DNA of 64,000 nucleotides. Origin: Catenuloplanes indicus. GTDB lineage: Bacteria; Actinomycetota; Actinomycetes; Mycobacteriales; Micromonosporaceae. Shown piece by piece: positions 3,601 to 61,110 of this stretch. Position 1 is the first letter of the stretch. Every line of letters starts with the position of its first letter. Under the pieces are notes generated by a model. That model had not been told where the DNA came from and did not search any database. It worked only from the letters and a program-made list of their open reading frames with translations. Position numbers and translations under genes: made by a program. The stretch is taken from NCBI RefSeq assembly GCF_030813715.1, contig NZ_JAUSUZ010000001.1, forward strand, positions 5,890,001 to 5,954,000. Direction: 5' to 3'.

Positions 3601-3967
3601 TGCCCGTTCCTCGCAGCGGTGCGGCCAGGTCGCCAACGGTCGACGCGATCTCGTCGGCGCTGACCCGGTTGAGCTCCTCGGTCGTGGTGTAGTTACGCAA
3701 AATCTCGGCGGTGGCGGTCTGTGCCGCGACGATCGCGGTGCGCAGTCGGCGTGCGTTCGCCAGGTGCTGGGCGTGCCGGGTCGCGTAGTTCGCGCTGATC
3801 GTCGCCGCGTGGTGGAACGTGCCGACCGCCAGCGGTGCGCTGAGCCGGTTGCTGAGCACATTGATCACGTGGTCGGCCTCGCTGAGCCGCTGTGTGAGCT
3901 GATCCTGGAACTCTTGCAGTGAATCGACGTCTACAGTGGTGTTTCCACCGCGAGCAGCCGGGCTCAT
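3593..3967 (-). CDS. Small WXG100-like helical protein of the type VII locus
   Basis: A 124-residue, mostly helical protein (SLQEFQDQLTQRLSEADHVI, then long helices rich in Ala) without membrane segments or a signal peptide. It lies directly upstream of, and overlaps by 8 bp, the Gly-rich WXG100-like gene, so the two are translationally coupled. The ATG at 3967 has a GGGAGG ribosome site 9 bp ahead. Its size, helical content and position suggest a partner or chaperone for the downstream putative substrate, like Esx heterodimers. No canonical W-x-G is seen. Confidence 0.65.
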   Translation of the reverse strand: MSPAARGGNTTVDVDSLQEFQDQLTQRLSEADHVINVLSNRLSAPLAVGTFHHAATISANYATRHAQHLANARRLRTAIVAAQTATAEILRNYTTTEELNRVSADEIASTVGDLAAPLRGTGNV

Positions 3968-43562: not shown

Positions 43563-43584
43563 AACAGCGCGTAATGATGGCGGC

Positions 43585-44286
43585 ATGGCCGCAACACAGA
43601 CTGAGGCGCGACTGCTCGTCGTCGAGGACGACCCGAACATCCTGGAGCTGCTGTCGGCCAGCCTGCGTTTCGCGGGCTTTGACGTCGCGACCGCGGTGAG
43701 TGGTAGCGCGGCGGTGGCGGCAGCCCGGGATCGGCGGCCGGACCTGGTCGTGCTCGATGTGATGTTGCCGGATCTGGATGGCTTCGAGGTCATCAAGCTG
43801 ATGCGGGAGGGCGGCACGCGGACGCCGGTGGTCTTCCTGACGGCGCGGGACGCGACCGATGACAAGATCCGTGGGCTGACGCTGGGTGGCGACGACTACG
43901 TGACGAAGCCGTTCAGCCTGGAGGAGCTGACCGCGCGGATCCGGGCGGTGCTGCGCCGGACCAGCGCGACGGCCGAGGAAAGTTCCCGCCTGACCTTCGC
44001 GGACCTGGAGCTGGACGAGGAGACGCACGAGGTCTACCGGGCAGGGAGCCGGGTGCAGCTGTCGCCGACCGAGTTCAAGCTGCTGCGCTACCTGATGCTG
44101 AACGCGAACCGGGTGCTCTCCAAGGCGCAGATCCTGGACCACGTGTGGAACTACGACTTCCGCGGTGACGACAACATCGTCGAGTCGTACATCTCCTACC
44201 TGCGGCGCAAGGTCGACACCACGCAGCCGCGGCTGATCCACACGCTGCGCGGGGTCGGCTACGTGCTCCGCAAGCCCGCGCAGTAG
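43585..44286 (+). CDS. OmpR-family response regulator
   Basis: A 233-residue regulator. The receiver domain has the acidic pair in VVEDDPN, the phosphorylated Asp58 in LVVLDVMLPD, and the Lys in YVTKPFS. The winged-helix DNA-binding domain follows (TPTEFKLL-like LSPTEFKLLRYLMLN, then FRGDDNIVESYISYLRRK). It is 7 bp from the histidine kinase gene. The order regulator-kinase-HtrA protease equals that of the mycobacterial MprA-MprB-PepD envelope stress system, an analogy from gene order. Confidence 0.92.
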   Translation: MAATQTEARLLVVEDDPNILELLSASLRFAGFDVATAVSGSAAVAAARDRRPDLVVLDVMLPDLDGFEVIKLMREGGTRTPVVFLTARDATDDKIRGLTLGGDDYVTKPFSLEELTARIRAVLRRTSATAEESSRLTFADLELDEETHEVYRAGSRVQLSPTEFKLLRYLMLNANRVLSKAQILDHVWNYDFRGDDNIVESYISYLRRKVDTTQPRLIHTLRGVGYVLRKPAQ

Positions 44287-44292
44287 GCGACG

Positions 44293-45915
44293 GTGAAGGC
44301 CCGCCTGCGCAGCACGCCGCTGCGGCTCAAGCTGGTCGCGAGCGTGCTGGTGCTGGTCGGCGTGGCGCTCATCGTGATCAGCGTCAGTAGTGCGTACTTC
44401 CTGCGGTCCTACCTGGTCCGGCTGGTCGACGACCAGTTGCACCAGATCGCGAACGACGCGAACGCGGCCGCGATGTTCGTCAACGGCGGCGAGGTAACGG
44501 TCCCGACCGACTACTACGGCCGGGTCACCGCGATGAACGGTGTCGGCAAGGACCCGGTCTACGACGCCCATCTCGGGCAGGGCGATCTTCCGCCGCAGGT
44601 CGAGGGCCGGGAGGAGATAGCCGCGGTGGCCGGCACCGCGTACACGGTGAAGTCGGAGAACGGCAAGATTCGCTGGCGCATGCTGGTCACGGTGCTGCCG
44701 AACAACGAGGTCCTGCACATCGGGGAGAACCTGGAGCAGGTCGATCTCGCGGTCAAGCGGCTGATCTGGATCGACGGGCTGGTCGGCGGCGCGGTGCTGA
44801 TCATGCTGGCGTCGATCGGCGCCGGCATGGTGCGCACCAGCCTGCGGCCGCTGGATCAGATAGAGCAGACCGCGGGCGCGATCGCGGCCGGTGACCTGAG
44901 CCGCCGCGTGCCCGACCCGGAACCCGGCATCGACGAGCCGCAGAGCGAACTGGGCCGGCTGTCCCGCGCGCTGAACGGCATGCTCACCCAGATCGAGGCC
45001 GGGTTCGCGGCGCGTGCCGCGTCCGAGGCGGCGGCCCGGTCCGCAGAGAGCGTCGCGCGGGACGCGGCGCTGCGCGCGCAGGCGTCCGAGGCCCGGGCGC
45101 GCAACTCGGAGCAGCGCATGCGGCAGTTCGTGGCGGACGCGTCGCACGAGCTGCGCACGCCGTTGACCACGATCCGCGGCTTTGCGGAGCTGTACCGGCA
45201 GGGTGCGGCCACCGACCCGCCCAAGCTGGTCCGCCGGATCGAGGACGAGGCCGCGCGGATGGGCCTGCTGGTCGAGGACCTGCTGCTGCTGGCCCGGCTG
45301 GACCGGGAGCGCCCGCTGGACCTGAGCCCGGTGGAGCTGCCGGTGCTGGCCGCGGACGCGGTGCAGGCCGCGCGCGCGATCGCGCCGGACCGGAAGATCA
45401 CGCTGGAGATCGCACCCGGGTCCGGGCCGCTGGTGGTGACCGGCGACGAGTCCCGGCTGCGGCAGGTCTTCGGCAACCTGATGACGAACGCGCTCACCCA
45501 CACGCCGGCGGACGCGTCCGTCACGCTGCGGCTGCGCGCGGAGGCGGACGCGGACGGGCGGCGCGTCGCCGGCGTGGTCGAGGTGATCGACACCGGCGGC
45601 GGGCTGACCCAGGAGCAGATCGACCGGGTGTTCGAGCGGTTCTACCGGGCGGACGCGGCCCGCACCCGCACCGCGGCCGGCACCATCAGCACCGGGCTCG
45701 GCCTGGCGATCGTGGCGGCCATCGTCTCCTCGCACGAGGGGGTCGTCGAGGTGGAGAGCACGCCGGGTAACGGCGCCACATTCCGGGTAAGACTGCCGCT
45801 GGTGCCGACCGAACTCGACGCGGACTCGGACGACGCTGACGAAGAGCTGGAAGACTTCCCGGAGGATGAGGGTGCTGACGCGGTCGCGTCGGATATCCGC
45901 CCTGATAAGCCCTGA
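44293..45915 (+). CDS. Membrane sensor histidine kinase
   Basis: A 540-residue kinase: membrane helix 1 (about 12-35), extracytoplasmic sensor domain (35-155), membrane helix 2 (about 157-180), HAMP (180-235), coiled coil rich in Ala/Arg, HisKA with His285 in DASHELRTPLTTIRG, and the ATPase domain with NLMTNALTHTP (N box), VIDTGGGLTQEQ (G1) and GLGLAIV (G2). An acidic tail (DSDDADEELEDFPEDE) follows, which is unusual. The start is GTG. It should signal to the regulator encoded immediately upstream. Confidence 0.92.
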   Translation: MKARLRSTPLRLKLVASVLVLVGVALIVISVSSAYFLRSYLVRLVDDQLHQIANDANAAAMFVNGGEVTVPTDYYGRVTAMNGVGKDPVYDAHLGQGDLPPQVEGREEIAAVAGTAYTVKSENGKIRWRMLVTVLPNNEVLHIGENLEQVDLAVKRLIWIDGLVGGAVLIMLASIGAGMVRTSLRPLDQIEQTAGAIAAGDLSRRVPDPEPGIDEPQSELGRLSRALNGMLTQIEAGFAARAASEAAARSAESVARDAALRAQASEARARNSEQRMRQFVADASHELRTPLTTIRGFAELYRQGAATDPPKLVRRIEDEAARMGLLVEDLLLLARLDRERPLDLSPVELPVLAADAVQAARAIAPDRKITLEIAPGSGPLVVTGDESRLRQVFGNLMTNALTHTPADASVTLRLRAEADADGRRVAGVVEVIDTGGGLTQEQIDRVFERFYRADAARTRTAAGTISTGLGLAIVAAIVSSHEGVVEVESTPGNGATFRVRLPLVPTELDADSDDADEELEDFPEDEGADAVASDIRPDKP

Positions 45916-45933
45916 TATATCCCCCGTTTTGGA

Positions 45934-45973
45934 TTCACAGTTAACCTTCAGGGCGATTTCAGGGCCGTCGCAG
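45934..45973 (+). promoter_or_regulatory. Four 11-bp-phased heptamers upstream of htrA
   Basis: TTCACAG (45934), CCTTCAG (45945), ATTTCAG (45956) and GTCGCAG (45967) start at exact 11-bp steps. The first is 63 bp before the htrA ATG; the equivalent distance for the regulator gene is 62 bp and the first heptamer is identical. Confidence 0.7.
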
Positions 45974-45996
45974 ATGTCGGCGGGAAGGTGGGAGAC

Positions 45997-47553
45997 ATGA
46001 ACGAGCACGAGACCACCCCCGAGGGGCAGCAGGCCCCCGCCGGAGAGGCGCAGGGGACCCCCGCCGAGGGCTACCGGCACCCGGCCGAAGGGCTGCGGGG
46101 GCCGTCCGGCTCGAGTGACGAGGCGAACCGGCCCCTCACGTCCGAGCCCGTCACCCAGCCGGTGCCGACCAACCTCGTCCCGCCCGCGGCCACGAGCGAG
46201 GCCGGCCGGCCGAATTACGGGCAGTACCCGCCGAGCCCGTGGGCCGCACCGGCCGCCGGCCAGACGTCGCACCTGCCGCCGGCCGCGGCGCCGGCCAGCG
46301 CGCAGCCGATGTCGCAGTGGGCGCAGCCGGTCCCGGCCGGTGCCTACCAGCCCGCCGGCTACCCCGGCCAGAGCCACCCCGGCGCGCACCCCGGCCAGAA
46401 CCACCCCGGTCAGCCGCCGGTGCCGCCGTGGGCCGGTGGGCCGGTGGGACCCGTGCCGCCGCCGCAGTCGTCGCCGGGTGACCGCCGGTTCGGCCGGTTC
46501 GCCGCGACCGCCGCCGCGGCCGTGGTGCTCGCGCTCGGTGCCGGCACGGTCGGCGCGGTCACCGCCAACGCGATGGACGACGACACCCCGGGCGTCAACA
46601 CCACGAACACCGCGAACGGCGAGCCCGCCCCGGTGATCGACCGCTCGTCGCTCGCCTCGATCGCGGCCGCGGTGCAGGACAGTGTGGTCTCCATCACCAC
46701 GGATACCGGCGAGGGCTCCGGCGTGGTGCTCACCGAGGACGGCTACATCCTCTCCAACAACCACGTTGTCGGCGGCGCGCAGGGCGGCCGGGTCACCGTT
46801 GTCTTCGCCGACGGCACGAAGGCAGAGGCCCAGGTCGTGGGTACGGACGCGCGTACCGACCTCGGTGTGGTCAAGGCGGAGGGCGTCTCCAACCTGACCG
46901 CCGCGAAGTTCGGCGACAGCGCGGCCGTCAAGGTCGGCGACACGGTGCTCGCGCTCGGCAGCCCGCTCGGCCTTCAGGGCTCGGTCACCGCCGGCATCAT
47001 CTCGGCCAAGGACCGGACCATCCAGGTCGCCGGCGAGGAGGAGCAGAGCCCGTTCGGCGGTGGCCAGCAGCAGGCCGGCCAGTCCATCGCGGGGCTGCTG
47101 CAGACCGACGCGCCGATCAACCCGGGCAACTCCGGCGGTGCGCTGGTCAACACGAACGGTGAGGTGATCGGCATCAACACCGCGATCGCCACCTCCGGTC
47201 AGGGCAGCGGCTCGATCGGCCTCGGCTTCGCGATCCCGAGCAACAAGGCCAAGGAGGTCTCCGAGGCGCTGAAGACCGGGCAGAAGGTCAGCCACCCGTT
47301 CCTCGGCGTCAGCCTGACCGAGGCGGAGGGCGGCGGCGCGCTGGTCAGCAGCGTCAGCGAGGACAGCCCGGCGCAGAAGGCCGGCATCCAGCGCGGTGAC
47401 GTTATCACCCAGATCGACGGCAAGGCCGTGAACAGCTCGGACGACGTGATCACCGCGGTGCAGGCGGGCAAGGTCGGCCAGCAGATGACGGTCACCTACA
47501 AGCGCAGTGGCGCGGAGAAGACCGCGACCGCGACGCTCGCCGAGGCCTCCTGA
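45997..47553 (+). CDS. HtrA/DegP-like S1C serine protease with PDZ domain
   Basis: A 518-residue envelope protease. Residues 1-165 are a cytoplasmic Pro/Gln/Gly-rich tail, then one membrane helix (about 168-190), the trypsin-like domain with His256 (SNNHVVGG), Asp288 (TDLGVVK) and Ser379 (NPGNSGGAL), and a C-terminal PDZ domain (about 425-515, FLGVSLTEAEGGGAL). It degrades or refolds damaged proteins outside the membrane. It has its own set of regulator boxes, so it can be induced separately from the two-component genes. Confidence 0.92.
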   Translation: MNEHETTPEGQQAPAGEAQGTPAEGYRHPAEGLRGPSGSSDEANRPLTSEPVTQPVPTNLVPPAATSEAGRPNYGQYPPSPWAAPAAGQTSHLPPAAAPASAQPMSQWAQPVPAGAYQPAGYPGQSHPGAHPGQNHPGQPPVPPWAGGPVGPVPPPQSSPGDRRFGRFAATAAAAVVLALGAGTVGAVTANAMDDDTPGVNTTNTANGEPAPVIDRSSLASIAAAVQDSVVSITTDTGEGSGVVLTEDGYILSNNHVVGGAQGGRVTVVFADGTKAEAQVVGTDARTDLGVVKAEGVSNLTAAKFGDSAAVKVGDTVLALGSPLGLQGSVTAGIISAKDRTIQVAGEEEQSPFGGGQQQAGQSIAGLLQTDAPINPGNSGGALVNTNGEVIGINTAIATSGQGSGSIGLGFAIPSNKAKEVSEALKTGQKVSHPFLGVSLTEAEGGGALVSSVSEDSPAQKAGIQRGDVITQIDGKAVNSSDDVITAVQAGKVGQQMTVTYKRSGAEKTATATLAEAS

Positions 47554-47769: not shown

Positions 47770-50700
47770 GTGTCGATCGTTGAAACACGGCTGAGCGTCT
47801 GGGAGGCCCTTGCCGGACGCGCTCCCGGCCAGCCGATCGGGCCCTCCGACACCGACGTGTGGTCCGCGGTGATCGACCGGATCAACCCGGCCCGGGCCCG
47901 GCCGGAGCTGCGGTCCGGCATCGAGACCGCCGAGCTGACCAGCGTCCGCGGCGTGCCTTATGTGATGCTCCGCTCGCCCGACGACGCCGGTCCGTCGAGC
48001 TACCTGCGGCTGAGCCCGGAGGAGTGGCAGCTCGCCGAGCTGATGGACGGTTCCCGCACGGTCGCGCGGCTGGTCGCGGAGTTCGCCCACATATCCGGCC
48101 GGCTCGCACCCGACCAGGTCCGCCGGCTCGTCGCCGACCTGGCCGCGAACCGCATGCTCGGCGAGCTGCCGGTGGACGCGTTCGGGCCGCTGGAGCAGGT
48201 GCGCCGCCGCCCGCTCGCGCTGCGCGTGGGCGCCGGGCTGCTGGCCGCCGCGCGAGGCCGCCGGATGGCCGTGGCGAACGTGGACCCGATCATCGACGTG
48301 CTCTACCGGTTCGGCGGCCGGTTCTTCTTCACGCCGGTCGCGGCCGTGCTGTTCGGCATCGTCGCGCTGGCCGGCTTCGGCCTCTTCGCCTGGACCTGGT
48401 GGCGCGGCGACCAGTCCGTCTTCGTGTCGAACGGCTCGTTCCTGGTCGGCGCGATCGTGTTGCTGGCGCTCAACGTGGTGGCGCTCGCCGCGCACGAGCT
48501 CGGCCACGCACTGGCCACCAAGCACATGGGCCGGCGCGTCCCGGCCGCCGGCTTCCTGGTCTACTTCGGCATCCCGTCCGTCTTCGTGGACACCAGCGAC
48601 GTGTGGATGGCCGGCCGTCGCGCGCGGCTGCGCACCACGCTCGCCGGACCGGCCGCCGGCCTGGTGCTGGCCGGCTCCGCGCAGATCGTCGGGCTGATCT
48701 TCCCGGCTGTCGCGCCGCTCGCGTTCAAGCTGGCCTTCGCGTGGTACCTGAACGCGCTGTTCAACCTGAACCCGCTGCTCGCGCTGGACGGCTACTACCT
48801 GCTGATGGACTGGCTGGAGATCCCGAACCTGCGGGCACGCGGGCTCGCGTTCGTCGCCGGCCGGCTGCGCCGCCGTCCGCCGCGCTGGCGCGAGCTGGAC
48901 GCGGAGGGCCGGCTGATCGCGCTCTACGGCACGCTCGCGGTGCTGTGGCTGGTGATCGCGGCGAACGTGTTCTACCGCGTCTGGGCCGACCGGGTGCAGG
49001 GACTGGTCTCCGGTCTCTGGCACGGCGGGTTCGGCCCCCGGCTGCTGTTGCTGCTGATCATCGGCGGACTGTGCGCGCCCCTGGCGTACCTCCTGGTGGG
49101 TTGGCTCTCCCGCCGCCTGCGGCGGTTCCGTGCGATGCGCCGGGAGCGGAAGCGGGCCGAGGACACGCCACACCGGCAGCACGCGCTCAACCGTTCGATG
49201 CTGGGCCGGCTGCCCGCGGAGGTGCTGACCCGGCTCGCCCGGCAGGCGCACTGGGAGCGTCCCGGCGACGGCCGCCAGCTGATCGCCGCCGGTGGCGCGC
49301 AGCCCACGGTGTACGTGGTGATCGAGGGCGCGCTGCAGGGCCGGCGCCCCGGCGACCCGGGCGGCATCCTGCGCCAGCACGCCGGCCCCGGCTCCACGGT
49401 CGGGCTGGACGCCGCGCTCGCCGGTGCCCCGGCCGCCCTGGACTGGTACGTGTCCGGCGACGCCGTGCTGCTCGCGATCCCGTCGACCGCGGTGGCGACC
49501 GCGATCGGCCCGCTGCCCGGACCACCGCCCACCGACCGGGCGTACGCGGAAGCGCTCTTCGACGACACACCGGCGCTGACCGGGCTCTCGCCCGAGGGCC
49601 GGATGGGCATGCTCGCGGCCGCGCGCTCCTCCGCGGTCAACCCCGGCGACGCGATCCGGCTCGACGGGCCGACCGACGCGGTGATCATCGAGTCCGGCGC
49701 GATCGTCCTGCCGGACGGCGGTGAGCTGCGGCGCGGCACCATGATCGGCCCGGTCGGCGAGGGCTACCCCGGCCCGGTCGCGGTCGCGCGCACACCGGTC
49801 CGGCTGTGGACCATCCCGGCGATGGCCGGTGCCGCGGCCACGTTCGCCGGCAGCTCCTCGTTCGAGGGTGCGGACCGGCCACCGCTGCGCCCGTCGACCG
49901 GCGTGCACTCCGGCGGCGACTACCCGCCGCTGGCCGCGCCGCCCGGTATGCCGCCCGGTGGCGTCGACTACGGGCTGGACGGCCGGTTCGAGCGCAGGCT
50001 CTGGTGGCTGGTGCTGCTGGTCCTGCTGCTCGCGCTCGGGCTCACCGCCGCGCAGCTGAGGCCCGCGCCCGCGTGGGCCGAGATGCCCGGCGACCGGGCG
50101 CTGCTGACCGCGGAGACCGGCACCGTCGACGTCGGCGTGGCCGGGCGGATGGTCCGGCTCGACGAGGGCAGCCGCTACCAGCTGCCGATCGGTGCGGAGG
50201 TCTGGGTCGGCACGGAGTCGCGGGCATCGCTGACGTTCCGCGGCGGTGCGTTCTCCGTGCTGTGCGCGGGCAGCACCGCCGAGATCCGCGACCTGCGCAC
50301 CGAGGGTGACCGGACCCGCACGCCGTACGCCGGTCTGGAGCTCGAGGACGGGCGGATCCTGTCCGACACGGCGTCGACCAGCGGTGCGTTCCGGCCGCTG
50401 TCGCTGGAGATCTCCAGTGCGCGGATCGCGGTCAGCAGCACCGGGGCCGCGTGGTACGCGGTGGAGAACGGGCAGGCCGTGGTGTCCCGGGGCGAGGTGC
50501 TGGCGGACCGGGTGAACCAGCCGGAGACGCGCCGCGACCTGGACTGCGCCGACGGCCTGCCGGACCCGCTCCCGACGCCGTCCGGTTCGCCGTCGCCGTC
50601 GCCGACGCCGTCGGACTCGCCGTCGCCGTCGCCGTCGCCGTCCCCGTCGCCGTCGAGTTCGCCGTCTCCGACGCCGTCCGTGCCCGGCAACGTGGTGCCG

Positions 50701-50973
50701 ACCGACGACGATGACGACGACAACGGTGGTGGAGTGGTGGTGCCGCCGCCTCCGGTGACGCGTTCGCCGAACCCGCCGCGTCCGACCACCCAGGCGCCGC
50801 CGCCTCCGTCGCCCACGACCAACCCGCCGACGACTGAGCCGAGCCCGGACCCGGAACCGACCAACACCGGCGAACCGACCATTTCCAGCGGTACGTTCAC
50901 CCCGTCCGTACCCGCGGAGCAGTCCTCGGTGCCGGCCGTCCCGTCGGTCTCCGAGACCGTGATCCTGTTCTGA
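47770..50973 (+). CDS. PqqD-like/M50 metallopeptidase/FecR-like membrane protein
   Basis: A 1067-residue multidomain protein. Residues 40-140 resemble a PqqD-type recognition domain (YLRLSPEEWQLAELMDGSRT). Next come several membrane helices with the zinc site HELGH at 242-246 and the third-ligand region LLALDGYYLL near 338, as in YydH-like peptide zinc metalloproteases. Residues about 465-680 look like cyclic-nucleotide-binding-fold repeats. A further membrane helix (about 743-765) leads to an extracellular FecR-like beta domain (about 775-905) and a Ser/Pro/Thr-rich tail. It heads a three-gene operon. Processing of a secreted peptide or protein is inferred. The GTG start is supported by GGAG 10 bp ahead. 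Confidence 0.8.
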   Translation: MSIVETRLSVWEALAGRAPGQPIGPSDTDVWSAVIDRINPARARPELRSGIETAELTSVRGVPYVMLRSPDDAGPSSYLRLSPEEWQLAELMDGSRTVARLVAEFAHISGRLAPDQVRRLVADLAANRMLGELPVDAFGPLEQVRRRPLALRVGAGLLAAARGRRMAVANVDPIIDVLYRFGGRFFFTPVAAVLFGIVALAGFGLFAWTWWRGDQSVFVSNGSFLVGAIVLLALNVVALAAHELGHALATKHMGRRVPAAGFLVYFGIPSVFVDTSDVWMAGRRARLRTTLAGPAAGLVLAGSAQIVGLIFPAVAPLAFKLAFAWYLNALFNLNPLLALDGYYLLMDWLEIPNLRARGLAFVAGRLRRRPPRWRELDAEGRLIALYGTLAVLWLVIAANVFYRVWADRVQGLVSGLWHGGFGPRLLLLLIIGGLCAPLAYLLVGWLSRRLRRFRAMRRERKRAEDTPHRQHALNRSMLGRLPAEVLTRLARQAHWERPGDGRQLIAAGGAQPTVYVVIEGALQGRRPGDPGGILRQHAGPGSTVGLDAALAGAPAALDWYVSGDAVLLAIPSTAVATAIGPLPGPPPTDRAYAEALFDDTPALTGLSPEGRMGMLAAARSSAVNPGDAIRLDGPTDAVIIESGAIVLPDGGELRRGTMIGPVGEGYPGPVAVARTPVRLWTIPAMAGAAATFAGSSSFEGADRPPLRPSTGVHSGGDYPPLAAPPGMPPGGVDYGLDGRFERRLWWLVLLVLLLALGLTAAQLRPAPAWAEMPGDRALLTAETGTVDVGVAGRMVRLDEGSRYQLPIGAEVWVGTESRASLTFRGGAFSVLCAGSTAEIRDLRTEGDRTRTPYAGLELEDGRILSDTASTSGAFRPLSLEISSARIAVSSTGAAWYAVENGQAVVSRGEVLADRVNQPETRRDLDCADGLPDPLPTPSGSPSPSPTPSDSPSPSPSPSPSPSSSPSPTPSVPGNVVPTDDDDDDNGGGVVVPPPPVTRSPNPPRPTTQAPPPPSPTTNPPTTEPSPDPEPTNTGEPTISSGTFTPSVPAEQSSVPAVPSVSETVILF

Positions 50974-50996
50974 TGTCGGTGTCCTGAGGAGGTCAC

Positions 50997-51212
50997 GTGC
51001 TCTGCTGGTTCTGCGCCAAGGCCGCGCGCGGCTCATGCCGGTTCTGCGGCCGTGGCGTGTGCGAGGATCACGCGCGCTTCGGCCCGTACCTGCTGGAGGT
51101 GCACCGCTCCGACTCGCGCCGCCGCGCCGAGGGCCTGGTCGTCGACGACGCGCTGCAGTGCGGGGCCTGCCACCCCCGCCCGCAGCCCGTCCCGATGCCG
51201 GAGCTGGACTGA
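50997..51212 (+). CDS. Small cysteine-rich (B-box/zinc-finger-like) protein
   Basis: A 71-residue protein with CWFC, SCRFCGRGVCEDH and QCGACH, seven or eight Cys plus His ligands enough for two zinc sites. It has no signal peptide. GAGGAGG precedes the GTG start, and its stop overlaps the next start (TGATG). It may be an adaptor binding the M50 protein or the following substrate-like protein; no function is known. Confidence 0.75.
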   Translation: MLCWFCAKAARGSCRFCGRGVCEDHARFGPYLLEVHRSDSRRRAEGLVVDDALQCGACHPRPQPVPMPELD

Positions 51213-51913
51213 TGCCCGGATTCGACGACGCCCTGGAACGCCTGGTCACCGACCCGGCGTTCGGCACCGCGCTGTCCACCGACCCGGACCGCGCACTGGC
51301 CGGCTACACGCTCACCGCCGACGAGGCGGCGCTGCTGCGCAGCCAGGTCTTCACCGGCACCGGCGACACCGGCCACAGCACGGTCGAGTCCCGCACCAAC
51401 CAGTCGAGCATGTTCGGCCTGCTCGGCGACATCTTCCCGGCCGATGCCGCCCCGGCCGGCCCGTACACCGCCGGGTTCGGCCCCACCGGCGGCTCCTCGA
51501 CGTCCCTGCACGCCACCGGCCCCGGCGCCCCGGCGGCCGGTTTCGGCACCGGGCCCGGCGTGCCCACAGCCGGGTTCGGTGCCGCGCCCCTCCCCGCTCA
51601 GGGCTTCGGCGACGCCACCACGCAGTCCTTCGGCGACGCTCCACCGCCGGTCCCGGACGGCTACGCCACCCGCGTCGACGCGGACGGCGACGGCACCTGG
51701 GACCCGCACGGCGTCCGCGGCCGCACCGGCGGCGGCGTCGAGATCCTGGTCGACCGCGACAACGACGGCGGCACCGACTTCACCGGCCACGACGTCGACG
51801 CCGACGGCCTCATCGACCACGCCGACTACGACACCGACCACGACGGCACCCCCGACACCCGCCTCACCGACACCGACGACAACGGCTGGCTCGACACCCG
51901 GACCCGCCCCTGA
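51212..51913 (+). CDS. LigA-like leader protein with thrombospondin type 3-like calcium repeats
   Basis: A 233-residue protein. Residues 1-45 (FDDALERLVTDPAFGTALST, then LTADEAALLRSQV) match the short LigA/Os1348-like helical leaders present in some RiPP precursors. The middle is Gly/Pro/Thr-rich with repeated AGFG. From residue 156 it holds tandem calcium-loop motifs: DADGDGTWD, DRDNDGGTDF, DVDADGLID, DTDHDGTPD and DTDDNGWLD. No signal peptide is present, so export would need the leader-like part. It is coupled to the Cys-rich gene and is the probable substrate of the locus. Confidence 0.75.
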   Translation: MPGFDDALERLVTDPAFGTALSTDPDRALAGYTLTADEAALLRSQVFTGTGDTGHSTVESRTNQSSMFGLLGDIFPADAAPAGPYTAGFGPTGGSSTSLHATGPGAPAAGFGTGPGVPTAGFGAAPLPAQGFGDATTQSFGDAPPPVPDGYATRVDADGDGTWDPHGVRGRTGGGVEILVDRDNDGGTDFTGHDVDADGLIDHADYDTDHDGTPDTRLTDTDDNGWLDTRTRP

Positions 51914-52026: not shown

Positions 52027-53307
52027 ATGACGGCCGTGGGGCTCGACCACCTGGGGAAGGTGTTCGATGACGGGACCGTGGCCGTGAACGACCTGTCGCT
52101 GGACATAGCGGACGGTGAGCTCGTCGTCCTGCTCGGACCGTCCGGCTGCGGCAAGTCCACCGTGCTCAGGCTGGTCGCCGGCCTGGAGGCCCCGACCACG
52201 GGGCACGTGCGGTTCGGCGGGCAGATCGTCGACCGGCTGCCCACCCGGGACCGGAACGTGGCCATGGTCTTCCAGCACTACGCGCTCTACCCGCACCTCA
52301 CGGTCGCGCAGAACATCGGGTTTCCGTTGCGGTCCGCGCCCGGCGTGGCCGAGCTGGTGGCGAACGCGGCGGCGCGCCTCGGGCTGACCGACGTGCTGGA
52401 CCGGCGGCCCGCGCAACTGTCCGGCGGGGAACGGCAGCTGGTGGCGATGGCCCGCGCGCTGGTCCGGCAGCCGCGCGTGTTCCTGCTCGACGAACCGCTG
52501 GCCCATCTGGACGCCGGCCTGCGGGCCGAGCTGCGCGGCGAGGTGGCCGCGACCGCGCGCCGGGTCGGCGTGACCACGCTCTACGTCACGCACGACCAGG
52601 CGGAGGCGCTGTCCGTGGCGGACCGGGTGGCCGTGCTCCGCGACGGCGTACTCCAGCAGGTCGGCACGCCCGCCGAGGTCTACGACGACCCGGCCACCGT
52701 GTTCGTCGCCGCGTTCCTCGGCACGCCGCGGGCGAATCTGTTCGAGGGAGCGGTCTATCCGGTCGACGGCCGGGTGGCGGTCGACCTGGGCAGCCAGGTG
52801 CTGATGTTGCCGGCCGGCGACGCGCGCACGGCGGCGCTGCTCCGGCACGAACGGGTCACGATCGGCCTGCGCCCGGACGCGCTGCGCGCCACCGTGCCCG
52901 CACCGGCCGACGGCGCAAGCCTGCACGGTCAGGTCCGGCACGTCGAGAACCACGGTTTCGAGGGCATCGTCCACCTGGACGCGGGCGGCCTGCCGACACC
53001 ACCCGCCCACACCATGATCGAAACCGCGGACCCCGCCCACCTCGCCGGCCTGCTGGCCGACCCACCCGACCCCGAACCTCGCCGCGGCGTCATCGGCCGC
53101 CTGCTGCCACGCACCGAGCCCCCGCGCCGCTACGGCCTCTACCCCGCCTACGAACCACCCGCGGACGCCCGCGACATCGGCGACGGCGACCTGGTGCTCC
53201 GCATCCCGGCCGCCGGCGGCCTCCCTCGCCCCGGCGAGTCCCTCACCGTCGCCGTCGATCCGGCCCGCCTGCTCCTCTTCGACTCCACCGGCGCCCGCAT
53301 CCGCTGA
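52027..53307 (+). CDS. Orphan ABC transporter ATP-binding protein (MalK/UgpC-like)
   Basis: A 426-residue ATPase with Walker A GPSGCGKST, Q loop (VFQHYALYP), signature LSGGERQ, Walker B VFLLDEPLAHLD and switch VTHDQAEAL. The C-terminal OB/TOBE region (about 240-425) carries an insertion around 335-375 (Pro/Arg-rich). Such ATPases can serve several sugar permeases; none is nearby. The ATG at 52027 is chosen; an ATG 8 bp upstream is out of frame. A strong terminator follows. Confidence 0.88.
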   Translation: MTAVGLDHLGKVFDDGTVAVNDLSLDIADGELVVLLGPSGCGKSTVLRLVAGLEAPTTGHVRFGGQIVDRLPTRDRNVAMVFQHYALYPHLTVAQNIGFPLRSAPGVAELVANAAARLGLTDVLDRRPAQLSGGERQLVAMARALVRQPRVFLLDEPLAHLDAGLRAELRGEVAATARRVGVTTLYVTHDQAEALSVADRVAVLRDGVLQQVGTPAEVYDDPATVFVAAFLGTPRANLFEGAVYPVDGRVAVDLGSQVLMLPAGDARTAALLRHERVTIGLRPDALRATVPAPADGASLHGQVRHVENHGFEGIVHLDAGGLPTPPAHTMIETADPAHLAGLLADPPDPEPRRGVIGRLLPRTEPPRRYGLYPAYEPPADARDIGDGDLVLRIPAAGGLPRPGESLTVAVDPARLLLFDSTGARIR

Positions 53308-57414: not shown

Positions 57415-60400
57415 GTGCAGCCTGAACTCGCGCCCGAATATCCGTGCCCCTGGTGCGGTGTGACCGCCACGCTGGACCGTGGATGCCCCGGCTGTGGCCG
57501 TGCGCCGAACCCGGTCGCGGCCGAGGTGATCGCGCTGGACGGGCGGATCGCCGTGCTGACGCCGCTGGTCGAGACCGCGCGGCGGGACCTGGAGACGGCC
57601 CGGCGGGTCTACGACGAGCGCGCGACCGGCCTGCGGGCGATGCAGCAGCGGCGCACCGGGTTGCTGGCGCAGATCCACGCCGCGCGCGTCACGGTCCCCG
57701 CGGCGCCGGTCCATGCGGCGGCTCCCGCTCCGGCGCCGGCCGAGCCGCCCGCGGCCCGGCCGGAGACCACCACCCGGACCGTGCAGAACGTGCTGTTCAT
57801 CCTCGGCGGCCTGCTGCTCGGCACCGCCGCGATCGTCTTCACCACGATCGCCTGGGCCACGTTCGGACTGGCCGGCCGCGCCGCGATCCTGGGCGGTGTC
57901 ACCGCGCTCGCGCTGGCCGCGCCGCTGGTCGCGCTGCGCCGCAATCTGCGGGCGACCGCGGAGACGTTCGCCGCGCTCGGCATGCTGCTGATCCTGCTGG
58001 ACGGCTACGCCGCCTGGTACGTGAACCTGCTCGGCGTCACCGCCCTGGACCCGGCCCGGTACGCGGGCGTGGTCGCGCTGCTCGCCGCGGTGATCGCGGC
58101 CGGCTACGGCTGGGCCACCGGTCTCACCGGGCCGCGGCTGGCCGCGCTGCTGCTGATCCAGCCGGTGCCGTCGATGCTCCTCGGCCGCTCCGGCACCTAC
58201 GCGACCGCGCTCGTGCTGGCCGGTACGGCCGCGATCGATCTGGTCGCGGCCCGCTTCCCGCTTCCGGTCCGCGCCGGGGCGCGTTCCACCGATCCGGGGG
58301 TACGGCACGGACTGCGCGGCCTCGCCTGGCTGCTCTTCGGCGGCTGGCTGTTCGCCGCGTTCGCCGCCTCGCTGCTGGCGCTGATCGCGGACGAGCGGGT
58401 CCCCGGCTACGTCTCGCCGACCGCGCTGCTGGTCACCGGCCTGCTGCTGGTGGCGGCCTCGATCGTGGCCGGCCGGGCGCGGTTCCGGGCGGTCGCGTCC
58501 GGCGTGTTCGTGGTGCTGGTCGCGATCGCGGCGGTCCGGCCGGTGGCCGAGTACGGCGACCGGTTCTGGCTGGTCACCGCGACCGCGGTGCTGGTGGCGA
58601 TCGCGCTGACCGTGTGGGTGGTGCTGCCCCGGCTGCCGGAGGCGGTGCGGCCGGGCCCGCGCGCCGGTGCGCTGGCCGTGCTGTGCGGCACGTACGCGGC
58701 ACTGGCGGCCGCGGCCGCGATCGGGCTGCTGGCCACGATCGCGCAGGCGGGCGAGCGGGACCGGCTGGACGCGATCCTGGACTGGCAGTTCCCGCTCGCG
58801 CTCGCCACACTGCCGCTGGCGATCGCTCCGCTGCTGCCGGCGTACACCCCGAAGATGTTCATCCCCGCGACCGCGGGCGCCTCGACCCCGATGGCCGAGC
58901 CGGTCGCGCCGCGGCACTGGGGTGGTGGCTGGCGCGGCTGGCACGACCCGGTGATCGTCGCGGTGACGCTGGGGATCCTGTCGTTGCCGCTCGGCTTCGG
59001 CATGCCGGTGGCGATGGCCGCCGGGCTCGCCCTGGCCGCCGGCGCGGCGCTGCTGCTCACTGCGGCGCGCGCGGATCTCGCGCGCTCCGTGCTGGTCCGG
59101 GCGCTGGCCGGTACGGCGTCCGTGGTGAGCGCGCTGGCGCTCGCCGCCTGGTGGCCGGGCACGTTCGCGGTCCTGCTGCCGCTGACCGTGGTGCTCGGCG
59201 TGGCGGTGTCGCTGCGCGCCCACGGCCGGAACTCGCTGCTCGGCCGGCCCGCGCTGGGTGCCGCGCTGACCGGCGTGCCGTTCGCCGCGCTCGCGGTGCT
59301 CGACGGCACGGTGCCGGGCGCTGCCTGGAACGGGGCCACCGCGGCCCGGCTGTCCTTGGCCGCGGCCGCGACGGTGCTGCTCGCGGTGGCCGCGGTCCGG
59401 CGCTGGCGCCCCGCCTACCTGGGCCCGGCCGGTGTCGCGTTCGGCCTGGTGATGCTGTTCGCCGGCCTGCCCCTCGACCCGGGCCGCGACCCCCGCCTCG
59501 GCTACGCCGCCGGTGCCCTGCTGCTGACCGCGCTCGCCGCGTACAGCCGGCCCCTGCTCGCCTTCGCCCCGCACTCCACGCCACCGCATCCCGGACCGGT
59601 TCCCGCTGTCTCACCGGCTGCTGCCGCCGCGCCGCGGTCTCCCGCTTCGCCGCTGCCTACGGCGACCGATGCCGCGCCGTCACCGACGGCGTCCGGCGTG
59701 TCGCCATGGGCGGCACCCGGCGTCCCGCCGACGCCGTGGCCGCTCGCGGCCTGGGGGCAGACCCTGCTGGCCCTCGCCGGTCTCCCGCTGTTCATCGCCG
59801 TCCTGCTCGGCGTCGTGGACGCGATCTCCACGGTCGTCCTCGCCCCCTACACCTGGCTCGACCGCGGCTGGTCCGAGGTGCCCACCGGCACCGGTCTCTC
59901 GCCGGGGACGGTCGTGCTGCCGGTGTGGAGCGAGTTCGCCGCCGTCGCGCTGCTGACCCCGGTGGTCTGGCTGGCCGTGCAGGTCGCCGACCGGTCCCGG
60001 CGCCGCTGGGCCACGCTCGCCGCCGCCGCGGCCGCCGCGCTCGCGACCCTGGTCGGGCTGGCCGCCGCCGGTGCACCGTGGCCGGTGATCCCGGCCGTCA
60101 GCGTCACCTTCGGGCTGACCGCGCTGCTCGTCGCGGGGTGGGTGCGGCGGACCGCGGCGCTGCTCGTACCCGCGGGCCTGGTGCTGAAGGGTGCGGCGCT
60201 GGCGGGCGCGTCCCCGCGGCCGGCCACCACGCTGGCCGCGCTGGGCCTGTCCCTGATCGCGGGGGTGGTGATCGGCGCGACCGGTCGTGGGCTGCGCGCC
60301 AGGCTGAGCGGATGGCTGGGCGCGGTGCTGGCCGCGGTCGCGCTGGCCGGCACGACCGGTGCCGCGGCCGACCTGCCGCTGCGGACCACCTCGCTGATCA

Positions 60401-61110
60401 TCCTCGGCGTCGCGGTGGCCACGCTGACGCTCGGCGCGCTGCTGCGCCGTACCCGGCCCGCCGAGGCCGGCCCGGTCGAGGTGGCCGCGCACGCCACCGC
60501 CGTCGTCGCGTTCCTGCTGGTCATCGGCGTGGACCTGCGGTACGCCGCGGCCGTCGCGCTGCTGTGGAGCATCGCGGTCGGCATCCGCGCGATCTTCGGA
60601 CCGTGGCGCTGGCCGCTCGGCCTGACCGCGGCCGGCTGGCTGCTGCTGGCCTGGTGGCTGCTGCTCGGTGCGGTGCGGATCGGCGTCTGGGAGGCGTACA
60701 CGCTGCCGGCCGCGCTGGTCGCCGCCGTGGTCGGCGTGCTCGCCGCGCGCCGGTGGCCCGCGCTGACCAGCTGGCGCGCGTACGCGGTCAGCGTCACCGC
60801 CGCGCTGCTGCCCAGCCTCGCCGCGGTCCTGCTGGGCGACGCGTCCTGGCAGCGCCGCCTGCTGCTCGGCGCCGGCGCGGTCGTCCTGGTGGTGGCCGGT
60901 GCGGTCCGCCGCCGTCAGTCCCCGGTGGTCCTCGGCGGCGGCACGCTCCTGCTGCTCTCCGTGACCGAGGTGGCGCGCGTGTGGGATCTGCTGCCACGCT
61001 GGCTTCCGTTCGCCGTGGGCGGCATCGTGCTGGTCACACTGGCGATCACCTACGAGCGGCGGCGCCGCGATCTGGCCCGGCTGCGTGCCGCCGTCGGCCG
61101 GATGACCTGA
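57415..61110 (+). CDS. Giant polytopic membrane protein with zinc ribbon (SCO7613-like)
   Basis: A 1231-residue protein. The start has two Cys pairs, YPCPWCGV and GCPGCGRAP, forming a zinc ribbon; residues 40-95 are a helical coiled coil; then come roughly 30 hydrophobic helices to the C-terminus, interrupted by a Pro/Ala/Ser loop near 720-760. It resembles the SCO7613 C-terminal-domain family of actinomycetes, which has no known activity. The start is GTG. Substrate transport is possible but not supported by any motif. Confidence 0.82.
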   Translation: MQPELAPEYPCPWCGVTATLDRGCPGCGRAPNPVAAEVIALDGRIAVLTPLVETARRDLETARRVYDERATGLRAMQQRRTGLLAQIHAARVTVPAAPVHAAAPAPAPAEPPAARPETTTRTVQNVLFILGGLLLGTAAIVFTTIAWATFGLAGRAAILGGVTALALAAPLVALRRNLRATAETFAALGMLLILLDGYAAWYVNLLGVTALDPARYAGVVALLAAVIAAGYGWATGLTGPRLAALLLIQPVPSMLLGRSGTYATALVLAGTAAIDLVAARFPLPVRAGARSTDPGVRHGLRGLAWLLFGGWLFAAFAASLLALIADERVPGYVSPTALLVTGLLLVAASIVAGRARFRAVASGVFVVLVAIAAVRPVAEYGDRFWLVTATAVLVAIALTVWVVLPRLPEAVRPGPRAGALAVLCGTYAALAAAAAIGLLATIAQAGERDRLDAILDWQFPLALATLPLAIAPLLPAYTPKMFIPATAGASTPMAEPVAPRHWGGGWRGWHDPVIVAVTLGILSLPLGFGMPVAMAAGLALAAGAALLLTAARADLARSVLVRALAGTASVVSALALAAWWPGTFAVLLPLTVVLGVAVSLRAHGRNSLLGRPALGAALTGVPFAALAVLDGTVPGAAWNGATAARLSLAAAATVLLAVAAVRRWRPAYLGPAGVAFGLVMLFAGLPLDPGRDPRLGYAAGALLLTALAAYSRPLLAFAPHSTPPHPGPVPAVSPAAAAAPRSPASPLPTATDAAPSPTASGVSPWAAPGVPPTPWPLAAWGQTLLALAGLPLFIAVLLGVVDAISTVVLAPYTWLDRGWSEVPTGTGLSPGTVVLPVWSEFAAVALLTPVVWLAVQVADRSRRRWATLAAAAAAALATLVGLAAAGAPWPVIPAVSVTFGLTALLVAGWVRRTAALLVPAGLVLKGAALAGASPRPATTLAALGLSLIAGVVIGATGRGLRARLSGWLGAVLAAVALAGTTGAAADLPLRTTSLIILGVAVATLTLGALLRRTRPAEAGPVEVAAHATAVVAFLLVIGVDLRYAAAVALLWSIAVGIRAIFGPWRWPLGLTAAGWLLLAWWLLLGAVRIGVWEAYTLPAALVAAVVGVLAARRWPALTSWRAYAVSVTAALLPSLAAVLLGDASWQRRLLLGAGAVVLVVAGAVRRRQSPVVLGGGTLLLLSVTEVARVWDLLPRWLPFAVGGIVLVTLAITYERRRRDLARLRAAVGRMT

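Follow-up and report, generated by a model that had tools for sequence, protein, structure and literature searches.

What does a membrane protease act on when it carries an RRE-like domain and is encoded just ahead of a leader-bearing calcium-loop protein? The question is raised by three genes in the 9.2 Mb genome of Catenuloplanes indicus, lying in the window analyzed here (64,000 nucleotides, positions 5,890,001 to 5,954,000 of contig NZ_JAUSUZ010000001.1). Gene 1 encodes a large protein with a PqqD/RRE-like domain and an M50 protease core, gene 2 a small Cys/His-rich protein that we call Cys71, and gene 3 a protein with a leader resembling those of ribosomally synthesized and post-translationally modified peptide (RiPP) precursors. 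Domain assignments throughout are based on sequence profiles, and coordinates are collected in Table 1. All three genes run in the same direction, with 23 bases between genes 1 and 2 and an overlap of the gene 2 stop with the gene 3 ATG (TGATG), a layout consistent with a coupled operon. An initial annotation had placed three tightly coupled genes here, and its coordinates hold on re-checking of reading frames, starts, and overlap. With moderate confidence, we read the locus as a leader-directed proteolytic maturation system made up of leader, RRE-M50 protease, Cys71, and calcium-loop cargo.

Leader, Cys71, and protease were each sought in a search of their own across one set of 200 family genomes, with a leader of this type called at E <1e-26 and a protease of this type at E 1e-60 or better. 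The leader was present in 59 of the 85 protease genomes and absent from all 115 that lack this protease, and every one of the 59 leader genomes carries both protease and Cys71, so the three genes do occur together beyond the window. Cys71 was found in 79/85 protease genomes versus 1/115 of the others; the single exception (G009) is a 69%-complete genome that holds a protease fragment. The 26 genomes with this protease and without this leader had no leader match anywhere at E 0.001. Other leader matches occurred in 22 genomes, 20 of which carry a distant M50 type, and a leader match was found in all 21 genomes with the distant M50; the two lie 20-32 kb apart in at least two genomes (G455, G475). 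Fisher values for this co-occurrence overstate its significance because the genomes share ancestry. Among 394 genomes drawn from the class, Cys71 was found in 14 and the leader in 7, counting the window's own genome in each, and both are rare outside the family.

The state of the protease active site follows the presence of the leader. Relatives of gene 1 of this type were reduced to 87 loci by dropping 26 duplicates and setting aside 6 with less than 2 kb of downstream sequence. The 49 loci with a leader all have an intact HExxH (49/49) and an intact LDGY (49/49). At the 38 loci without a leader, HExxH is intact in 23 and lost in 15, where it reads HELAR, HELSR, REYAR, REWAR, REFAR, YELGH, QEFGH, or QECGH; the LDGY tyrosine is lost in 33. 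Of the five leaderless loci that keep LDGY, four belong to a genome or strain with a leader at another place (L075-L076, L081-L082, L178-L155, L189-L154), and the fifth, L183, is a 7.7-kb contig. Nine leaderless loci retain the calcium block, and the second zinc His is lost in all nine, the first as well in three. Two of these nine are second copies in strains whose first copy has a leader and an intact site (L171 with L139, L181 with L152). Actinoplanes subtropicus and Actinoplanes sp. KI2 each carry two copies of the protease, the copy on the leader side being intact and the copy beside a leaderless calcium protein broken. The rows set aside comprise L074 (leader, intact) and five at contig ends: L079, L088, and L142, all intact, L089 (HEAGR, LALDGT), and L230 (HELGH, LPRDGS).

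The rest of the protein was compared by measuring identity to the Catenuloplanes sequence in groups taken from a tree, so the rows are not independent. Between a leaderless clade (28-29 rows) and its leader-bearing sisters (14 rows), identity in the M50 core was 0.576 versus 0.691, in the N-terminus 0.638 versus 0.703, in the RRE-like domain 0.725 versus 0.765, in the cNMP-like part 0.559 versus 0.558, and in the outer domain 0.408 versus 0.435. In a separate leaderless trio the core stood at 0.578 and the cNMP-like part at 0.557. The protease part has therefore changed most where the leader is gone. Because the zinc site is kept with the leader, and is lost or lies in a diverged core without it, the leader is probably the client of the M50 protease, as in daptides.

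Several observations weigh against this conclusion. More than half of the leaderless loci (23/38) keep HExxH, and their protease may have another client. The tree, built by a quick method with the motif columns blanked, places 29 of the 38 leaderless loci in a single clade and three in the separate trio, with the rest scattered. The events are few, with a minimum of six changes for the leader (four if a leader elsewhere counts), four for HExxH, and three for LDGY. Five independent pairs differing in the leader could be drawn on well-supported branches; on average, HExxH tracks the leader in 0.5 of them and LDGY in 2.5, with HExxH not differing in 4.5, LDGY not differing in 2.5, and the opposite direction in none. 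A sign test on these pairs is therefore without power. The calcium block persists where leader and protease site are both gone and therefore also has a role that needs no cutting, and the gene 3 product is far longer than usual RiPP precursors. Among 16 distant loci (L193-L209 minus L203), Cys71 was found in 7 and a leader above 30 bits in 3, leaving 9/16, some on short contigs, with neither near the M50 gene.

The assignment of gene 1 to the M50/site-2 proteases, as initially annotated, is upheld by HExxH and LDG motifs among hydrophobic helices together with profile homology. A 12-sequence M50 profile that includes the window's sequence matches SpoIVFB (8vjl, E 1.9e-5) and 3b4r (E 1.4e-4) in the PDB, and none of its sequences departs from the two His and the Glu of HExxH or from the Asp of LDG. 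Pfam PF02163 (M50) scores 18.6 bits, below its cut-off of 27.2. The NCBIfam model of the daptide intramembrane metalloprotease, NF041824, matches aa 76-413 (E 3.6e-36), a span that takes in both RRE and core, and since its 125.1 bits fall far below the cut-off of 300, gene 1 is a distant relative of the daptide protease. The epipeptide protease model NF058609 gives 44.9 bits (cut-off 225). The PqqD-like region also stands, by profile comparison: hhalign against 12 PqqD members, all above the Pfam cut-off, gave probabilities of 90.0% for the gene 1 type, 95.5% for the distant type, and 97.1% for a mixed profile, and of no more than 0.2% for the controls (Cys71, FecR-like, cNMP-like). The window protein has no direct Pfam PqqD match; sub-threshold matches came only from the two distant-type proteins scanned. 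Synonymous change in gene 1 exceeds non-synonymous change between congeners.

The leader of gene 3 had been described as RiPP-precursor-like and labeled LigA. The general likeness is supported and the label is not; the libraries name the Os1348/NHLP type. NF038399 (Os1348 family, NHLP clan) matches leader aa 7-44 with 37.1 bits for whole gene 3 and 39.9 bits for the leader alone, at a cut-off of 40; the leaders of relatives match it at E 0.1 or better in 18 of 18 cases, and a more distant precursor in L117 reaches 61 bits. The top match of the leader profile in the PDB is a weak one to 6lk7 (85 aa, E 0.038), apparently the Os1348 crystal structure. Conservation of aa 1-72 extends across 62 non-redundant leader proteins drawn from both types (73 with repeats included), with R61 in 62/62, G69 in 60, and V58 and E59 in 58 each, and between congeners the leader shows more synonymous than non-synonymous change. 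A weak match to the IniB N-terminal domain model (NF038175) was seen for 8 of 18 leaders, the best at E 6e-4. The remainder of IniB proteins is Gly-rich, and their N-terminal domain and the NHLP-type leaders may be related.

Behind the leader, the linker varies greatly in length and sequence among relatives. The five Asp-rich calcium-type loops of the initial annotation are indeed present, as five DxDxDGxxD matches in the final 88 aa; 2000 shuffles gave a mean of 0.06 and a maximum of 2, which places the pattern far above chance, and calcium binding is predicted. The Pfam model TSP_3, put forward at the outset as a check on this region, found no match in the gene 3 product. Among the 37 calcium-block proteins of named loci, 21 have five loops, 15 have four, and one has three, and 31 of the 37 carry the leader; leader proteins without a calcium block occur in L085, L087, and L090. 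The dN/dS (ratio of non-synonymous to synonymous change) of the calcium block is unreadable because synonymous sites look constrained, with a proportion of synonymous differences (pS) of 0.08-0.10 in three of four congeneric pairs and 0.31 in the fourth. Gene 3 has no strong hydrophobic stretch, the best 19-residue hydropathy mean being 0.73 at aa 65-83. In L096 (3315-6616), a locus of a fragmentary genome outside the 87-locus table, a 498-aa calcium-block protein without a leader match adjoins Cys71 and a gene-1 frame that aligns over a short stretch only.

Cys71 has the pattern CxxC..CxxCx4Cx2H..CxxC. In an alignment of 16 such proteins, the window's Cys71 shares at least 77% identity with 14 of the rest and 55% with the remaining one, which comes from another family; seven Cys and one His are invariant. 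Three of four congeneric pairs show no amino-acid change despite 11-20% synonymous difference, and synonymous change exceeds non-synonymous change between congeners. No library family scored above cut-off and no useful PDB match was found, although sub-threshold zinc-finger matches (DUF2180 and C5HCH) occurred in 16/16 members; Cys71 is presumably a zinc-binding protein. The Cys71 profile applied to the distant loci and the 87-locus table contained one wrong-frame row (L111), and the scores listed for distant loci are at least 85.7 bits.

Parts of this arrangement have precedents. In daptides, MpaP/DapP is an RRE-fused site-2 protease said to remove the leader of a ribosomal peptide (PMC10036551, PMC12338566). 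Gene 1 shares the fusion of an RRE-like domain to M50 but differs in its presumed client, a 233-aa calcium-loop protein, in its Cys71 partner, and in its extra cNMP-like, FecR-like, and tail regions. The epipeptide protease EpeP/YydH and the pearlin proteases TglG/TmoG are, like gene 1, M50 membrane proteases, but their clients are small ribosomal peptides; EpeP is thought to cut and possibly export (PMC10885120). The cellular level of an Os1348-type precursor is described as rising when a downstream gene for a predicted peptidase, whose activity is itself a prediction, is disrupted (PMC7726476). Os1348 is an 85-aa protein, whereas in gene 3 the leader is followed by a long linker and then a calcium block. 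SpoIVFB is described as acting on a transcription factor precursor, unlike gene 1 with its presumed client bearing a RiPP-type leader. The initial annotation knew of no described system with this combination. Searches of the open literature (subscription papers were outside the scope) likewise listed no paper in which a calcium-loop protein with an Os1348/NHLP leader is accompanied by an RRE-M50 protease and Cys71, but leader removal by an RRE-M50 protease and M50 leader proteases are already described.

Since the daptide and epipeptide precedents, the co-occurrence, and the joint decay all point the same way, the simplest account is that gene 1 would bind the leader and cut near aa 58-75. The gene 3 product would be made in the cytoplasm, and its helical Os1348/NHLP-type leader would bind the PqqD/RRE-like domain at the N-terminus of gene 1. 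Within the membrane, the M50 zinc site would then cut near the conserved segment V-E-x-R-x-[SN]-[KQ]-S-x-x-F-G-L-L at the leader end, releasing linker and calcium-loop cargo, which we guess ends up outside the cell or at its surface. Cys71 would be a dedicated cofactor or adaptor of the protease. An essentially similar model had been proposed in the initial annotation. What it gains is the coupling of leader and M50 (by co-occurrence, recurrence in a distant type, and joint decay) and the RRE homology; the binding, the cleavage, the position of the cut, and the role of Cys71 we infer from these.

Gene 1 could instead be chiefly an envelope sensor, with the FecR-like domain outside, the cNMP-like domain inside, and the calcium-loop protein as its partner. 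The leader would then only dock this partner on the RRE-like domain, and any proteolysis would be regulatory, in the manner of S2P (site-2 protease) signaling. Such a scaffold or sensor would suit the nine loci in which calcium block and gene 1 stay together without leader or zinc site, and the cNMP-like part that is equally conserved with and without the leader. It would also suit the position of the operon beside a two-component system and an HtrA protease: a response regulator, a histidine kinase, and an HtrA-type protease are encoded upstream of the module (window 43582-47553), and the same set precedes the protease in 13 of the 15 retrieved relatives with sufficient flank. However, the retention of HExxH and LDGY in every leader locus suggests that catalysis is tied to the leader. 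In L075 and L081 the protease gene, and in L082 the Cys71-leader pair, lie away from the two-component and HtrA genes. On balance we think a sensor of this kind unlikely, though it deserves serious consideration.

The leader family and the RRE belong to the RiPP world, and a stricter RiPP cluster could be imagined in which the leader guides modification before the M50 cut, the modifying enzyme is encoded elsewhere, and the calcium-loop region is the core. Relatives with several leaders, an Anaerolineae assembly with four short tandem leader peptides and a Nitriliruptoraceae assembly with three leader proteins, would fit this picture. Neither a RiPP-modifying enzyme nor a daptide enzyme was found among the eight Pfam-scanned window genes around the module, however, and in our judgement a long hypervariable linker with calcium loops is unlike a modified core, which makes this explanation improbable. 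Finally, the genes could be ordinary neighbors that share an operon by inertia, without joint function. The wider region is syntenic among relatives and could hold passengers, but the module is also found at different loci and in further phyla, and passengers would not be expected to show a leader and a protease site decaying together; we give this very little credence. Leader-directed maturation by gene 1 remains the reading we prefer.

Table 1. Positions of the three genes and their parts in the window, and of the second-type loci (last three rows).
Feature	Coordinates	Strand	Description
Gene 1	47770-50973	+	1067 aa, GTG start; RRE-like, M50, two cNMP-like repeats, transmembrane (TM) helix, FecR-like domain, Pro/Ser-rich tail
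PqqD/RRE-like domain	47923-48189	+	aa 52-140; hhalign against PqqD family
M50 intramembrane protease core	48262-49149	+	aa 165-460; profile homology
HELGH zinc motif	48493-48507	+	read in sequence
LDG motif, Tyr next	48784-48792	+	read in sequence
Degenerate cNMP-binding-like repeats	49192-49839	+	aa 475-690; PF00027 21.1 bits (cut-off 27.5), one stretch matched
TM helix ahead of presumed outer domain	49999-50055	+	aa 744-762; hydropathy
FecR-like (or cupin-like) domain	50062-50544	+	aa 765-925; sub-threshold Pfam
Gene 2 (Cys71)	50997-51212	+	71 aa, GTG start, preceded by AGGAGG; Cys/His-rich
Gene 3	51212-51913	+	233 aa; leader-bearing calcium-loop protein
Os1348/NHLP-type leader	51212-51427	+	conserved aa 1-72
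Leader end V-E-x-R-x-x-[KQ]-S-x-x-F-G-L-[LF]	51383-51424	+	aa 58-71; candidate cleavage or recognition segment
Hypervariable Gly/Ala/Pro-rich linker	51428-51655	+	aa 73-148
Calcium-type block	51656-51910	+	aa 149-233; five DxDxDGxxD loops
Second-type locus L094	6522-10394
Second-type locus L095	6426-12074
Second-type locus L092	5857-10272

The C-terminal half of gene 1 is less clearly assigned. The cNMP-fold-like repeats of the initial annotation retain a degenerate likeness to that fold and fall below the Pfam cut-off. The phosphate cassette FGExALLx(2-5)RxA is missing in 61/61 frames of L132-L192 (a few of them truncated) and present in 6 of the 17 frames of L193-L209, a set that includes the truncated close relative L203. 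Nucleotide binding by the gene 1 repeats is unlikely because this cassette is missing. The outer domain had been called FecR-like, and PF04773 scores 20.3 bits on the window domain, short of its cut-off of 24. It matched one of six members, while Cupin_3 matched three of six; FecR matches were found in 2/15 whole proteins at E up to 1 and in 0/31 genomes at E 0.001. A PDB sequence search gave as its best match the uncharacterized protein 3myx (E 4e-4), with a cupin-fold entry also among the matches. The domain is therefore labeled FecR-like or cupin-like.

Downstream of the module lies an ABC-transporter ATPase gene (52027-53307). Farther along the window, 57415-61110 encodes a 1231-aa protein with CxxC pairs near its N-terminus and no Pfam match at E 0.001. 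A scan of named genomes, covering the best 80 of 162 relatives, yielded 78 loci, and the closest named relative within these is Catenuloplanes japonicus (L132), at 90% identity in the best segment.

A second type of locus (L092, L094, L095) has a leader protein followed by an M50 protein that shares 30-32% identity with gene 1 in its core. This M50 protein has a CxxC-rich start visible in all three, and both an FHA domain and a sub-threshold PqqD match in the two scanned (L092, L094). A Ser/Thr kinase gene comes next, recognized by Pfam in L094 and by similarity or by eye in L092 and L095. The second-type cargo has TSP3-like repeats in L094 (Pfam 16.6 versus 25 bits) and L095 (by eye) and a His/Asp-rich stretch in L092, and close to the C-terminus each of the three leader proteins carries a hydrophobic segment rich in Gly.

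More distant relatives show other combinations. The Nitriliruptoraceae assembly (L190) has its three leader proteins with protease and Cys71. In the Anaerolineae assembly (L209, 8160-9594), the four short tandem Os1348-type leader peptides have variable tails and stand beside Cys71 and an M50-cNMP protein, in what looks like a RiPP-type cluster; relatives with several adjacent leader proteins suggest a RiPP-like ancestry. Leader, protease, and Cys71 lie on one contig in a Chloroflexi (L201) and an Acetothermia (L205) assembly, and a leader peptide of the former (3630-3938) ends in a run of Ala-Arg-Asn-Thr repeats. L116 (1300-6237) and L117 (4039-8949) have an Os1348-type precursor, an M50-cNMP protein, and Cys71 together, the M50-cNMP protein being fused to an AhpC/TSA-like domain (a fusion checked in L116).

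Cys71 also has another partner. The 394-genome sample contains 13 Cys71 genomes that are not from the family; M50 adjoins Cys71 in four, and nine have no M50 match in the stretch examined. In the eight of these nine that were inspected (all but L115), Cys71 adjoins what looks like a PrsW-type protease (Pfam-confirmed in the two tested), and six of these loci also show, alongside, a small protein of one kind that is weakly winged-helix-like. Cys71-PrsW loci occur in small-genome actinobacteria (L113 8488-10118, L114 1058-2714, L118-L123), and by eye the same type of small protein also stands beside Cys71 in L205. It is possible, and we put it forward tentatively, that leader-directed intramembrane proteolysis is widespread (Actinomycetota, Chloroflexota, one Acetothermia assembly) and serves whole proteins as well as peptides, that Cys71 is a general zinc cofactor paired with M50 and PrsW, two unrelated families of intramembrane protease, and that the RiPP-type leader marks calcium-binding envelope proteins for delivery.

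Small natural products are the known setting of leader-guided proteases, and the same logic appears here to serve a long calcium-loop protein found in many members of one bacterial family. The 71-residue partner, presumably zinc-binding, is strongly conserved. The lineages in which leader and protease site have decayed together are natural knock-outs, and yield a prediction of what the protease cuts.

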